Source of the DNA: Mariniblastus sp.
Lineage (GTDB): Bacteria; Planctomycetota; Planctomycetia; Pirellulales; Pirellulaceae
Direction of reading: 5' to 3'
DNA length: 64,000 nt
NCBI GenBank assembly: GCA_022447555.1
Contig: JAKVBF010000001.1
Coordinates: 25,560 to 89,559, forward strand
Both the position numbers and the translations under genes were made by a program. Positions 47,904 to 53,367 of this stretch are shown here, piece by piece (position 1 is the first letter of the stretch; the number at the start of each line of letters is the position of its first letter). The notes under the pieces are model-generated. The model was not told the DNA's origin. It worked only from the letters and a program-made list of their open reading frames with translations, and did no database searches.

Positions 47904-49580
47904 TCAACTCACTTTGGGATCGTCAATGTTTTCATCCTTGGCCGCCGCCCTGAGCTTTGTCAGCGCCCGAGCCTCAATTTGCCGAATCCGCTCCTTTGTA
48001 ACCCCCAACAGGGCGCCAACTTCCTTGAGCGTCTGCGGCTCCTGATTGTAATCCAGACCAAAACGACTGATTACAATCTTCCGCTCTCTTTCATCCAGAC
48101 TCTCCAATATCTGATTGACCTGCTCCTCACGTCGCTTTTGCGCCGACTCCAGCATGTAGCGATCCGTTCGTAGATCCTCTTTCGACAAGAAAATTTCTTC
48201 GGAAGTTGGTCGAAAACGATCCTTCTGCTTGAACTCATCCGGGATTGTTCTGGCAAAGTTTTTCATGATGGCCCAACTGGCATAAGTACTAAACTTATTA
48301 CCGCGTGAGTAATCAAATTTCTCGACCGCCCGAATCAACGACATATTCCCATCACTGACCAATTGAAAAAAGTCTTCGTTAGCCGAAACATGCCGCTTTG
48401 CGATGGACACGACCAGCCTTAGGTTGGACTTCACGATCAAGTTCTTTACTTTCACTGCCGCCCCATAAAGCTCTTCAATCTCATCCATCTCGGATGAACG
48501 AGCCTGATTGGGATCCAGTTTGTCTCGCAATTGCCGGGCTTTGCATTTCAGGAAATTGAATTTCCGAAACAGGTACTGCTCCTGTTCTCGCGTTAGTAAA
48601 GCTACTTCGTACAACGATGCCAGGTACCGAGGTAGGCCAGCGGGTGGCTTGCTACGGCGCGTCGCCTTTTCAGGCTGAGGCATTTCGGATTCCACAATTT
48701 TCTTAAAGGCACTTTTACGATGAAATTCGGCGTTGTCCATGAAATCCAATGGTAAGTCTAGGATCATGTTTGCGCGAACTTCATTGATCACTCGATAAAC
48801 GGTCGTTTTCGTCCTGCAATACCGTTTGGCCAGTACATCCGCACTCTTACCAGAGACAAAATCGGCATAAATGCGCTCTTTCATCTCCAGATTCAAAGGC
48901 CCTGTTTGATCCGGAAATACGGCGATATCCGGATAAAACTGATCAAATTGTTTGATTGTGTACCGAATGGTCTCAACGCTGCGCTCCATCGACTTGGCAA
49001 TCCGACGAGTGACATCGGCCGGGCATCCGCCTGCTCGTGCCAAACGACGAGCTCTTTCAATGATCTCGTCTTTATCTTCCCTCGTCAGTTGGCTGAATCG
49101 CTCACCACGACGAACTTTTTCGCGATTGTTTTTAACGAACTGATCGACACTACTATGCAGGAAGCCAACACGTTTTCGGCCGCCGTCAAAGATAAATTTA
49201 CGGCTAACTAATCCTTGTTGTCTCCATCGGGAAATAGTTTTACTTGATACGTTAAACATCTTGCTCAGCTGGTCCACGGTATGGACCGGTTGACCCGATT
49301 CGTCTGCTCGCACGTCGGCCGATTCAGACAAGTCCTCGATCAAGCAAAACAGGTCGTGACACAGATCCTCACCCTCTATCTTGATGATCGGCGATTGTTC
49401 CGGACGAAAACCCGTGACTCGAAAGCAGACATACTCGTAGTTATAATTTCGTTTGGGCTGGATATCTCGCAATAATTTTTCTGCACAATCGACCTGTTCG
49501 ATTTTCTTTTCGCGGGGTGCAAACCGAACCTGCTGATCTCGTAGTTCGCGAATCGCGTCACATTTGTAATCGGTATGCAT
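47904..49580 (-). CDS. Sigma-70 family RNA polymerase sigma factor with N-terminal HTH-containing extension
   Basis: Region 2: NLIVKSNLRLVVSIAKRHV...EDFFQLVSDGNMSLIRAVEKFDYSRGNKFSTYASWAIMKNFAR; region 4: LDERERKIVISRFGL...TLKEVGALLGVTKERIRQIEARALTKLR; N-terminal VHTVDQLSKMFNVSSKTISRWRQQGLV. Confidence 0.9.
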   Translation of the reverse strand: MHTDYKCDAIRELRDQQVRFAPREKKIEQVDCAEKLLRDIQPKRNYNYEYVCFRVTGFRPEQSPIIKIEGEDLCHDLFCLIEDLSESADVRADESGQPVHTVDQLSKMFNVSSKTISRWRQQGLVSRKFIFDGGRKRVGFLHSSVDQFVKNNREKVRRGERFSQLTREDKDEIIERARRLARAGGCPADVTRRIAKSMERSVETIRYTIKQFDQFYPDIAVFPDQTGPLNLEMKERIYADFVSGKSADVLAKRYCRTKTTVYRVINEVRANMILDLPLDFMDNAEFHRKSAFKKIVESEMPQPEKATRRSKPPAGLPRYLASLYEVALLTREQEQYLFRKFNFLKCKARQLRDKLDPNQARSSEMDEIEELYGAAVKVKNLIVKSNLRLVVSIAKRHVSANEDFFQLVSDGNMSLIRAVEKFDYSRGNKFSTYASWAIMKNFARTIPDEFKQKDRFRPTSEEIFLSKEDLRTDRYMLESAQKRREEQVNQILESLDERERKIVISRFGLDYNQEPQTLKEVGALLGVTKERIRQIEARALTKLRAAAKDENIDDPKVS

Positions 49581-50174
49581 CTGTAAACCTCTTTCCTACC
49601 CAGCTCAGCAATTATTCTGACATCCAATGCCAAACAAATAATTCCAACCGGACTTCTGATCCTTGCAACACAACAACACTCCTTGTTGCCGACACCTGAT
49701 TGACGCTGCCCATGGTTCAGACTTACGCCTAAAATCGTGAACGGTTCAACTTCCGTGCATTTTTTGAATTCGCTGATCGGATCACAAAACGTTAATTGAC
49801 CTTGATTTAGATCACCCGACTAGCCGCTTCAAAAAAAGCGCACAGCTCCACGTCCACATGGCAGCAAAAGCCATTCCAAAAACCACTGAACATCCCAAGA
49901 TTTCGAGGCATTCTTGGAAAATCGTGGTTTTTACGGAAGTAGTTCACTTAACGGTGGTGGATGCACCCGCTCCAAAAGGTAGGCATATCCACGTTTGCTT
50001 CGCAATTAATTGCGGTTCGAGACGAGTTTTCTCGATTTGAGACAGTTTTTGAGACGATAAGTTCCGAAAGAAACCCTGCCGAGACACCGAATGGACAGGA
50101 TTCCCCTGAAATCGGGCGTTCTCGGCCTAATGGGTTCGCTGGAGCGTTTCAAATATTGGCAAAAATCCGAGTAA

Positions 50175-51572
50175 ATGATGAAAATTCCTAAAGGAACAAC
50201 CGTAATTTCAGGAAGCCTTTTAACCTTGATTCTATTGCTCGTAGCCGCACCTGCTTCGGCTCAGCAATTCGATCTCTCTTCTGAAGTCGATCAAGGAGAG
50301 TTTCAAGCGGCTCGATTCCAAGTTGAGTACTCAGGACACATCGTGGTCGATCTCTCTCGAGATAAAAAGCTGGACGCGAGTATTTTACCGATCGATGTCA
50401 AAGGCCAATTTTCCTTTGACCAGCAATTGAGCGGAAAGCCCAACTCCATGCAGGCCGTTCGTTATTACACCAAGGCGTCAGCCAATATTAAGGCCGGCAA
50501 AGGACACAAGGCATCCCATTTAGAGCCTGAGAATCGCTACATTCTAGGACGTATTCGGACTTTGGAAAATCAAAATCAGTTCCAGATTGCCTCGATTGGA
50601 TCGGTTCTTCAACGCTCTGAATATGAATTATTACGCAACCCCTGTGATCCGGTTGCCTTGATTGGATTACTCGATCAACAAGGCGTCTCCATCGGCGATA
50701 CTTGGCAAGTGGAGAAAGGGGCCTTGGGCCGATTTCTCAATATCGACCACGTCATTTCGGCCGATGTGGATTTCAAACTAAAAAATGTCAATGGCTCCAA
50801 AGGGCTAATTCATATAGCAGGTCATGTGAAGGGTGAAATTGACGATGTTGTCACGGAACTAGATGTTACCGGCTCACTTCAGCTCGATGTTGAGCTGAAT
50901 CGTATCACTGCGGTCCGTATCAACATCAATCAAGAAACCGATCCCGGACAGGTCGCCCCCGGTTTTGAAGGTCAAATAAAACTCGACATGCGCATCAAAA
51001 CCCTCACCCGCAGCACACACCTAACGCGAGATAAGTTGGCAGCTGTGATGACGGGCACCAAAATCAAGCAGTCTTTTTTACTGAAGCCCAAAGGCGCTCC
51101 ATTTTCCGTCGTTCATAGTCCCAACTGGCGCGTGATTGCCTCCGAAGAAGAGGCGGCTGTCCTCCGCTACATTCACAATGGAAACCTACTTGCCCAATGC
51201 AACATTGTGCAACTTCCCAGTCGTCCAGCCGATAAACCACTTCCACTAAAGGCCTTTGAAGCCGAAGTAAAGAAAATGATCCAAAGCTCCGAAAGCCTTA
51301 CCATCAAATCATCCAGCACCGCCGAAACGGCTAATGGGTACCCAGCCCTACGGGTGGTGGTTGAGGGCTTCGAGTCCGGGGTGCCAATCCGCTGGCTTTA
51401 CTACCACATCTCGAACCAGGACGGGCTCGCCTTGACCTGCGTGTTCACGCTAGAGAAGCAAATTGCTGAACAGTTTGGAAAAGCCGACCAGACATTTGTC
51501 AATCGAGTTCAATTGTTAACTCTCGCTGCCCCACGTCAAACCGAAAAAAACGAGGACGAGACCATCCGTTAG
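50175..51572 (+). CDS. Hypothetical secreted protein
   Basis: Signal peptide-like N-terminus (ISGSLLTLILLLVAAPASAQ); 465-aa ORF. Confidence 0.75.
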   Translation: MMKIPKGTTVISGSLLTLILLLVAAPASAQQFDLSSEVDQGEFQAARFQVEYSGHIVVDLSRDKKLDASILPIDVKGQFSFDQQLSGKPNSMQAVRYYTKASANIKAGKGHKASHLEPENRYILGRIRTLENQNQFQIASIGSVLQRSEYELLRNPCDPVALIGLLDQQGVSIGDTWQVEKGALGRFLNIDHVISADVDFKLKNVNGSKGLIHIAGHVKGEIDDVVTELDVTGSLQLDVELNRITAVRININQETDPGQVAPGFEGQIKLDMRIKTLTRSTHLTRDKLAAVMTGTKIKQSFLLKPKGAPFSVVHSPNWRVIASEEEAAVLRYIHNGNLLAQCNIVQLPSRPADKPLPLKAFEAEVKKMIQSSESLTIKSSSTAETANGYPALRVVVEGFESGVPIRWLYYHISNQDGLALTCVFTLEKQIAEQFGKADQTFVNRVQLLTLAAPRQTEKNEDETIR

Positions 51573-51715: not shown

Positions 51716-52546
51716 ATGCTTGATCTTCACGATAAAATCCAAGACGGCATCGAATTTATCAAGGGTCAGTGGGACCATCGCGCCGAAGCCGGAATCATCT
51801 TGGGTACTGGACTCGGGTCGCTAGTGGCCAATATCGATGTTCAAGCGTCGATTGAATATAGTGACATCCCGCATTTCCCCAAATCAACCGCCACGAGTCA
51901 CAAAGGCCGTTTGATTTGCGGGCACCTAGGTGGTCTTCCCGTGATGGCAATGGAAGGCCGATTGCATATGTATGAAGGCTATTCGCTCAAGGAAATCACA
52001 CTGCCGGTCCGAGTCATGAAAGCCATGGGCGCTGAACTTCTTGTCGTTTCCAACGCTTGTGGCGGGCTCAACCCCTATTTTCAACTAGGGGACATCATGT
52101 TGATCGAAGATCAAATCAATCTTATGGGAGACAATCCATTGATTGGAATCAATGATGATCGGCTGGGTCCAAGATTCCCTGACATGTGCGAGCCCTACTC
52201 CCACGACTTGATCGAGCGAGCGCTGCAACTAGCGCGAAAAAACGATATTACCGCTCACAAAGGGGTCTTTGTTGCAGTCGCGGGGCCAAATTTGGAAACG
52301 CGAGCCGAGTATCGATTTCTGCGAACTATCGGCGCCGACGTCGTGGGTATGTCAACCGTTCCGGAGGTGATCGTCGCAGTCCATTGTGGCATGCGAGTGG
52401 TTGGATTCTCCATTGTGACCGATATGTGTTTACCTGACGCCCTAAAACCGGCCGACATTGACGAGATCATTCGAACGGCCAACGAGGCCGAGCCAAGATT
52501 AACGGAATTGGTGATGGGCGTTCTGGCTGCCGAGAGAAATGGATGA
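51716..52546 (+). CDS. Purine nucleoside phosphorylase (copy 1, Asp at base-specificity position)
   Basis: GIILGTGLGSL, HFPKSTATSHKGRL, MEGRLHMYEGYS, VSNACGGLNP, AGPNLETRAEYR, GMSTVPEV, IVTDMCLPDAL. Confidence 0.92.
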   Translation: MLDLHDKIQDGIEFIKGQWDHRAEAGIILGTGLGSLVANIDVQASIEYSDIPHFPKSTATSHKGRLICGHLGGLPVMAMEGRLHMYEGYSLKEITLPVRVMKAMGAELLVVSNACGGLNPYFQLGDIMLIEDQINLMGDNPLIGINDDRLGPRFPDMCEPYSHDLIERALQLARKNDITAHKGVFVAVAGPNLETRAEYRFLRTIGADVVGMSTVPEVIVAVHCGMRVVGFSIVTDMCLPDALKPADIDEIIRTANEAEPRLTELVMGVLAAERNG

Positions 52547-53367
52547 ACCCAGTCGATATGGAACGGGCTGCGGACGAAGCAGCGGAGTTTGTCAGGCGGC
52601 ATATTTCGCAGCCCCCCCGGTTCGCCTTGATCTTAGGTACCGGCTCCAACCAATTGGCTGATGGCATCGATACCGAGACCGTTTTAGATTTCGAAACGAT
52701 TCCACATTTCCCAGCCAGTACCGCGACCGGTCACCGCGGCCAGCTTGTTCTGGGACAACTTGCGGGCCAACCAATCATCGCCATGCAAGGACGATTCCAT
52801 CTTTATGAAGGCTATTCGATAGACACGACGACCCTGCCTATTCACATGTTGGCTCGACTGGGAATTCATTTTTTGCTGGTCAGTAATGCCGCTGGTGGAC
52901 TCAATCCACAGATGGTCAGCGGTGATCTGATGTTGATCGACAGTCATCTTGATTTGATGTTTCGCACCTCTCCAAATTTAAGCAGACCTTCTCCCCCTCG
53001 GCCCAGCCTGCGAAGTGATCAGTATGACCGACAAATGCTGGAAGACGGATTGGCCTGTGGGAGACGCCACCACTTTACCGTTCACCGAGGAGTTTACGCC
53101 GGCATGCTGGGCCCTAATTACGAAACCCGCGCGGAATATCGATTACTGAGAAGGATGGGTGCGGATGTGGCCGGCATGTCGACGATTCCCGAAGTCACCG
53201 TCGGCACCCGATACGGAATGCGCATCTTGGGGATCTCTCTGGTGACCAACGTCGCAAACCCCGACTCCCTGCAGCCCACCTCCGGTGATCAGGTGATCGC
53301 GGCAGCACAAGCCGCGGCGCCTAAATTGAAGGCGGTGGTCATTGATGCAATCAGCCGCAACGCTTGA
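52543..53367 (+). CDS. Purine nucleoside phosphorylase (copy 2, Asn at base-specificity position)
   Basis: LILGTGSNQLAD, HFPASTATGHRGQL, MQGRFHLYEGYS, VSNAAGGLNP, GPNYETRAEYR, GMSTIPEV, LVTNVANPDSL. Confidence 0.92.
   Translation: MNPVDMERAADEAAEFVRRHISQPPRFALILGTGSNQLADGIDTETVLDFETIPHFPASTATGHRGQLVLGQLAGQPIIAMQGRFHLYEGYSIDTTTLPIHMLARLGIHFLLVSNAAGGLNPQMVSGDLMLIDSHLDLMFRTSPNLSRPSPPRPSLRSDQYDRQMLEDGLACGRRHHFTVHRGVYAGMLGPNYETRAEYRLLRRMGADVAGMSTIPEVTVGTRYGMRILGISLVTNVANPDSLQPTSGDQVIAAAQAAAPKLKAVVIDAISRNA

Follow-up and report, generated by a model that had tools for sequence, protein, structure and literature searches.

A 558-aa sigma-70 protein of planctomycetes combines an RpoD-related sigma half, from which domain 3 is missing, with an N-terminal array of helix-turn-helix (HTH) domains: one of BldC/MerR type, a probable second one, and one of Mor type. 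Its gene occupies 47904..49580 of the window, the 64,000-nucleotide stretch of DNA analysed here, and lies on the minus strand, as do its domains, leader and upstream elements described below. The reading frame starts with ATG, 104 full-length sequences were aligned, and no curated NCBIfam model covers the family. The genome is that of a Mariniblastus-like member of the Pirellulaceae (a MAG), whose closest named relatives show 94% identity in this protein. The original prediction had placed a sigma-70 factor with an HTH-bearing N-terminal part of about 300 aa at 48681-49580, an interval that corresponds to residues 1-300. The reading frame, Pfam, AlphaFold2 and recurrence among orthologues confirm this architecture, to which we add two features that had been overlooked: a probable middle HTH (residues 165-216) and the missing sigma domain 3.

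Sigma factors normally depend on separate activators. We propose, with a probability of about one half, that the multi-HTH sigma, a single-copy core factor of its planctomycete class, unites promoter recognition and activation in one protein, as a sigma factor with a tethered activator. For this protein, we infer DNA targets, binding to core RNA polymerase and the direction of regulation as follows. The HTHs would recognise particular DNA sequences close to a target promoter and thereby anchor the holoenzyme or set its orientation; this binding would compensate for the missing domain 3, and only promoters that combine a sigma site with an HTH site would fire. That the fused HTHs make the sigma factor its own activator, as had been suggested from the sequence, is a plausible idea and our leading model. 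A conserved, single-copy sigma factor that carries its own DNA-binding array and lacks domain 3 would be a natural test of the role of this domain and of whether a sigma factor can incorporate an activator of its own. It may also regulate genes globally, in a phylum for which little is known about gene regulation.

The N-terminal half

AlphaFold2 modelling of the N-terminal 305 aa, using an alignment of 56 sequences, yielded a mean pLDDT of 89.9 and predicted an alpha/beta fold at residues 1-95, a winged HTH at 102-151, and tri-helical units at 167-215 and 231-274. The pTM was 0.61 for the N-terminal half and 0.53 for the whole protein, and the placement of the domains relative to each other is not fixed by the model. 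The alpha/beta domain (residues 1-95; 49296..49580) reached pLDDT values of 90-96 by blocks; neither Pfam nor PHROG gave a noteworthy match for it, and it was assigned to no known family.

HTH1 (residues 99-152; 49125..49286) is a winged HTH of the BldC/MerR/excisionase type. It includes the first motif of the original prediction (VHTVDQLSKMFNVSSKTISRWRQQGL, beginning at residue 99), which AlphaFold2 folds as helix-helix-hairpin-helix at 102-151. In the full protein, the Pfam matches to HTH_17 and MerR at 101-152 fall below the cut-offs; the segment alone matches HTH_17 with an E-value of 1e-5. Profile comparison of HTH1 returned the structures 6amk/6ama (E 0.0008-0.002), labelled by the tool as putative DNA-binding proteins, which we take to be BldC, and a PHROG excisionase profile matches residues 86-202 (E 6.9e-9). 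Among nine segments of the protein HTH1 ranks second in conservation, with 2.88 bits per column compared to 3.19 for sigma region 2 and 2.83 for region 4, and K114, R118 and G123 are invariant in the 56 sequences. We also considered whether the protein belongs to the MerR family of regulators. This assignment was rejected: the HTH scores below the MerR and MerR_1 cut-offs, and HTH2 and HTH3 are located where the coiled coil would be.

Residues 165-216 (48933..49088) probably form a second, tri-helical HTH. This call is mainly based on the AlphaFold2 model, with helices at 167-182, 187-198 and 202-215, and on conserved residues, R200 and R206 being invariant and S201, E203 and T204 nearly invariant in the 56 sequences. 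Pfam support is weak: HTH_38 is matched in a single orthologue (L078; E 0.003), and its match in the window protein is not significant.

HTH3 (residues 227-274; 48759..48902) is a Mor/C-type HTH and contains the second HTH-like stretch proposed earlier (SADVLAKRYCRTKTTVYRVINEV, residues 246-268), for which AlphaFold2 likewise predicts a tri-helical fold, with helices at 231-242, 247-253 and 258-274. The Pfam Mor profile scores 25.1 bits at 222-272 and 27.9 bits for HTH3, both above its curated cut-off of 24.9; the match covers positions 53-99 of 107, so the complete Mor domain is not present and the N-terminal dimerisation part is absent. In addition, HTH3 matches a PHROG profile of a late transcriptional activator (E 9.7e-6), and HTH_23 exceeds its Pfam cut-off in the window protein. 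Matches to HTH_23, HTH_17 and Mor recur in 80, 79 and 70 of 81 orthologues, respectively, which excludes chance. A PDB fold search with the whole N-terminus produced nothing below an E-value of 1e-3, and many of its weak matches are HTH proteins; the N-terminal half had no match among 50,697 phage records. The original prediction would have fallen had there been no structural HTH in this region. Instead, HTHs are confidently predicted and conserved.

The HTHs could, however, be autoinhibitory or protein-binding rather than DNA-tethering. In one such scenario, the N-terminal half mainly serves as an inhibitory or sensing module, as sigma region 1.1 or ECF extensions can, and the HTH folds keep regions 2 and 4 masked until a signal acting on residues 1-95 or on DNA frees them. 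This would give a role to residues 1-95, whose fold is predicted with confidence but belongs to no known family. It would also agree with the part taken by ECF extensions in ECF regulation, as described in passages of a review (PMC8103513). Yet the invariant basic residues in the recognition helices of HTH1 and HTH2 would be superfluous for inhibition alone, and neither Pfam nor PHROG detected a ligand-binding family in the N-terminal half. We consider this explanation unlikely.

The sigma half

The C-terminal half contains sigma regions 2 and 4, as predicted originally. Pfam identifies Sigma70_r2 at residues 383-440 (PF04542, 50.6 bits, cut-off 24, E 1.7e-13) and Sigma70_r4 at 492-545 (PF04545, 62.9 bits, cut-off 24.1, E 1.9e-17), which places the protein in the sigma-70 family. 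Alignment with three RpoD-like proteins and an RpoS-like protein of the same genome showed that regions 1.2, 2 and 4 are retained and that domain 3, about 70 residues, is missing. Region 1.2 and the helices following it correspond to residues 315-378 (48447..48638), as is also indicated by PDB matches to SigA. Region 2 (residues 379-449; 48234..48446) is altered in its subregions 2.3/2.4, where WW is replaced by WA and QAIT by KNFA. In place of domain 3, which in other sigma factors provides the extended -10 contact and the sigma finger, residues 450-484 (48129..48233) form a linker about 70 aa shorter than in the RpoD proteins of the same genome, with pLDDT values below 50 at 450-472. Region 4 (residues 485-548; 47937..48128) carries an RpoD-like -35 recognition helix, VT(K/R)ERIRQIEA.

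The phylogeny called for in the original prediction places the family, along with short relatives found in other planctomycetes, beside RpoD and RpoS and away from the FliA-like protein and the four tested ECF sigma factors of the same genome (FastTree, 232 columns; branch supports were not printed and the exact branching is provisional). Two class assignments were tried and rejected. The first, a primary sigma factor (RpoD/SigA, group 1), had been named as a possible refutation should the family prove to be the primary sigma of the phylum. It does not hold: domain 3 is missing, TIGR02393 scores 146 bits against a cut-off of 354, and the genome contains three other RpoD-like genes. The second is an ordinary ECF sigma factor (group 4), with which the protein shares the absence of domain 3, but it keeps region 1.2 and groups with RpoD/RpoS.

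Comparison with known regulators

Group 1 and 2 sigma-70 factors (RpoD/SigA, RpoS) are the nearest clade in the tree and share regions 1.2, 2 and 4 as well as the recognition helix. They differ from the multi-HTH sigma in that the latter has no domain 3, has altered regions 2.3/2.4, carries the HTH array in place of region 1.1, and coexists with three RpoD-like genes. BldC/MerR-type and excisionase proteins resemble HTH1 in fold and sequence, yet these are separate small proteins, whereas HTH1 is fused to a sigma factor. Likewise, HTH3 exceeds the Pfam cut-off for the Mor/C activators of phage Mu. Mor/C activators act in trans on RNA polymerase, whereas HTH3 is located in cis on the sigma factor and matches the Mor profile in its HTH portion alone.

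Planctomycete ECF sigma factors with N-terminal extensions (formerly ECF87-89) exist, none of which had been studied experimentally according to passages of a review (PMC8103513). By that description, they share with the multi-HTH sigma the phylum, an N-terminal extension, and sigma2 and sigma4 domains on a short linker; unlike them, the multi-HTH sigma keeps region 1.2 and groups with RpoD rather than with the four tested ECFs of the genome. The family may nevertheless already have been named among ECF87-89. The helix-turn-helix passages of two ECF reviews (PMC8103513, PMC8999054) do not contain an HTH-fused sigma architecture, the main text of a paper on essential genes of Planctopirus names only the housekeeping sigma factor (PMC10632474), and the relevant passages of PMC4598750 and PMC8567305 do not describe the multi-HTH sigma.

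Promoter and upstream elements

The multi-HTH sigma gene is preceded by an ECF-type promoter, GAACCGTTCACGATTTTAGGCGTA (GAAC-N16-CGTA; 49724..49747), which belongs to a conserved motif upstream of the orthologues. GAAC-N16/17-CGTA is present in 55 of 104 upstream regions, in 49 of these 90-240 bp from the start codon, and on the opposite strand of the orthologue upstream regions there was none. An unbiased dyad search in 92 upstream regions ranked GAAC-N17-CGTA first, with 31 occurrences against 1.0 expected (z 24.5; the highest z after shuffling was 8.9). In the family f3, the -10 element is CGTC. Many orthologues lack the GAAC/CGTA promoter, which counts against the proposed model. Upstream of some orthologues (L114, L096, L097), TTGACA/TATAAT-like promoters, and not the ECF type, are apparent by eye, which suggests promoter turnover. 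A further conserved element, TTGGAA-N6-TTTTGC (49862..49879), was seen in the upstream alignment, and TTGG-N8-TTGC occurs in 23 of 92 upstream regions (1.4 expected).

The ECF-type promoter is at odds with the RpoD-like region 4.2 of the protein itself, which makes self-recognition through region 4 unlikely. GAAC-N16/17-CGTA also occurs a short distance before the reading frame at 18 of 28 loci that encode orthologues of L007, an ECF sigma factor of the same genome, most of these loci coming from one genus. This shared motif makes an L007-type ECF the candidate driver of the multi-HTH sigma gene, which it would transcribe from GAAC-N16/17-CGTA. The protein encoded directly after the L007 ECF gene at one locus (L158:1501-3269) has 360 aa and, judged by eye, a probable membrane-spanning segment; it may be an anti-sigma factor.

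In f3, a 14-bp palindrome (GTTCGCATGCGAAC with at most two changes, or GTTCGYRYRCGAAC) lies over the -35 element and ends in its GAAC. Seventeen of the 23 sampled f3 genera other than g262 have it, and it is missing in all five genomes of g262, the genus that has lost HTH1 and HTH2. This pattern might indicate that the HTHs mainly serve autoregulation, the protein binding the -35 palindrome of its own gene to repress or activate it while the sigma part works elsewhere as an ordinary alternative sigma factor. However, g262 represents a single loss event, and the palindrome is absent or degenerate in all 12 g5 genomes, where HTH1 and HTH2 are intact, so that it provides a hint of autoregulation and not a test. 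Moreover, Pirellulales commonly show just the GCGAACTT half-site. Autoregulation through the palindrome is thus only hinted at, and as the main function of the HTHs it appears distinctly unlikely. In five further f3 genera the palindrome was not found within 700 bp. In some upstream regions, GCGAACTT half-sites precede ACTT or CGTC by 15-18 nt, with CGTA further on; these may be connected with the ECF promoter or with a possible second promoter.

The mRNA leader and CsrA

The 5' leader of the gene (49581..49717, its start placed from the promoter) contains hairpins with GGA loops and CANGGA motifs, for example at 49674-49688 and 49617-49633. In 75 orthologues, the 112 bp that precede the ribosome-binding region contain 83 GGA hairpin loops (26 ± 4.8 expected from dinucleotide shuffles) and 54 CANGGA motifs (13.5 ± 4.1 expected). 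Regions upstream of tuf, of nusG (n=4), of the divergent gene and of two further genes stayed near their nulls, and regions upstream of secE show an excess of CANGGA, too (11 against 2.4). A start-proximal hairpin displays compensatory changes in nine of 12 predicted pairs (24 orthologue sequences).

CsrA binds to hairpin sites of the GGA-loop/CANGGA type. Several ANGGA sites, GGA in hairpin loops, and CsrA itself are all found here: the genome encodes six csrA genes at six places. Together, the GGA-loop leader and these genes make it likely that CsrA controls the mRNA of the multi-HTH sigma, with CsrA-type proteins acting on the hairpin leader. In 40 relatives, we counted 3-14 csrA matches each. 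Transcribed by an ECF of the L007 type and controlled by CsrA, the multi-HTH sigma would form the second tier of a sigma cascade. We are somewhat more tentative about this fuller reading, i.e. a class-wide core sigma factor without domain 3 that chooses promoters by its fused sequence-specific HTHs and is controlled by an ECF sigma factor and CsrA, and hold it at a little below even odds.

Distribution and gene neighbourhood

Of 298 genomes of the planctomycete class, 288 have a match to the N-terminal 310 aa, nearly always a single one. Outside the class, in a sample of the phylum, N-terminal matches occurred in 15 genomes of 10 families, some of them partial and some at contig ends, and most other genomes of this sample had matches to the sigma core only. 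Genus g262 (five genomes) gave no N-terminal match; its protein of 368-392 aa consists of HTH3 plus the sigma half (40-46% identity). As g262 is nested inside the family in the tree, its loss of HTH1 and HTH2 is secondary. At one g262 locus, tuf directly follows the shortened sigma gene.

HTH1 and HTH2 are dispensable in g262, and the retention of the gene after their loss argues against the tethered-activator model; at the same time, this genus offers a built-in control, naturally devoid of two HTHs. The same observation would fit an ordinary alternative sigma factor whose inherited extension plays a structural role without binding DNA, but HTH1 is more conserved than region 4 and almost every genome of the class retains the full-length form, which renders this explanation very improbable. 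Short relatives of the sigma half (300-400 aa) lacking HTH1 and HTH2 exist both within the class, where some genomes have them as paralogues, and in other lineages of the phylum (G181, G048, G069, L042, L043, L155 and others).

Downstream of the multi-HTH sigma gene, tuf is found at 42 of the 54 Pirellulales loci that extend 4.5 kb or more in this direction, mostly followed by secE and nusG; class-wide, about half of 20 loci keep tuf-secE-nusG in this position. In the window, the sigma gene and tuf are separated by tRNA-Thr, tRNA-Gly, tRNA-Tyr and tRNA-Thr genes, and apart from tRNAs no Rfam family near the sigma gene scored above its gathering threshold. A divergent gene (50175-51572), present at 71 of the 73 Pirellulales loci for which 2 kb or more of upstream sequence is available, encodes a predicted secreted protein of 465 aa with a weak match to DUF6263. 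Beyond it, at 51716-53367, the window contains two adjacent paralogous genes for proteins of about 275 aa that, judged by eye, resemble purine nucleoside phosphorylases.
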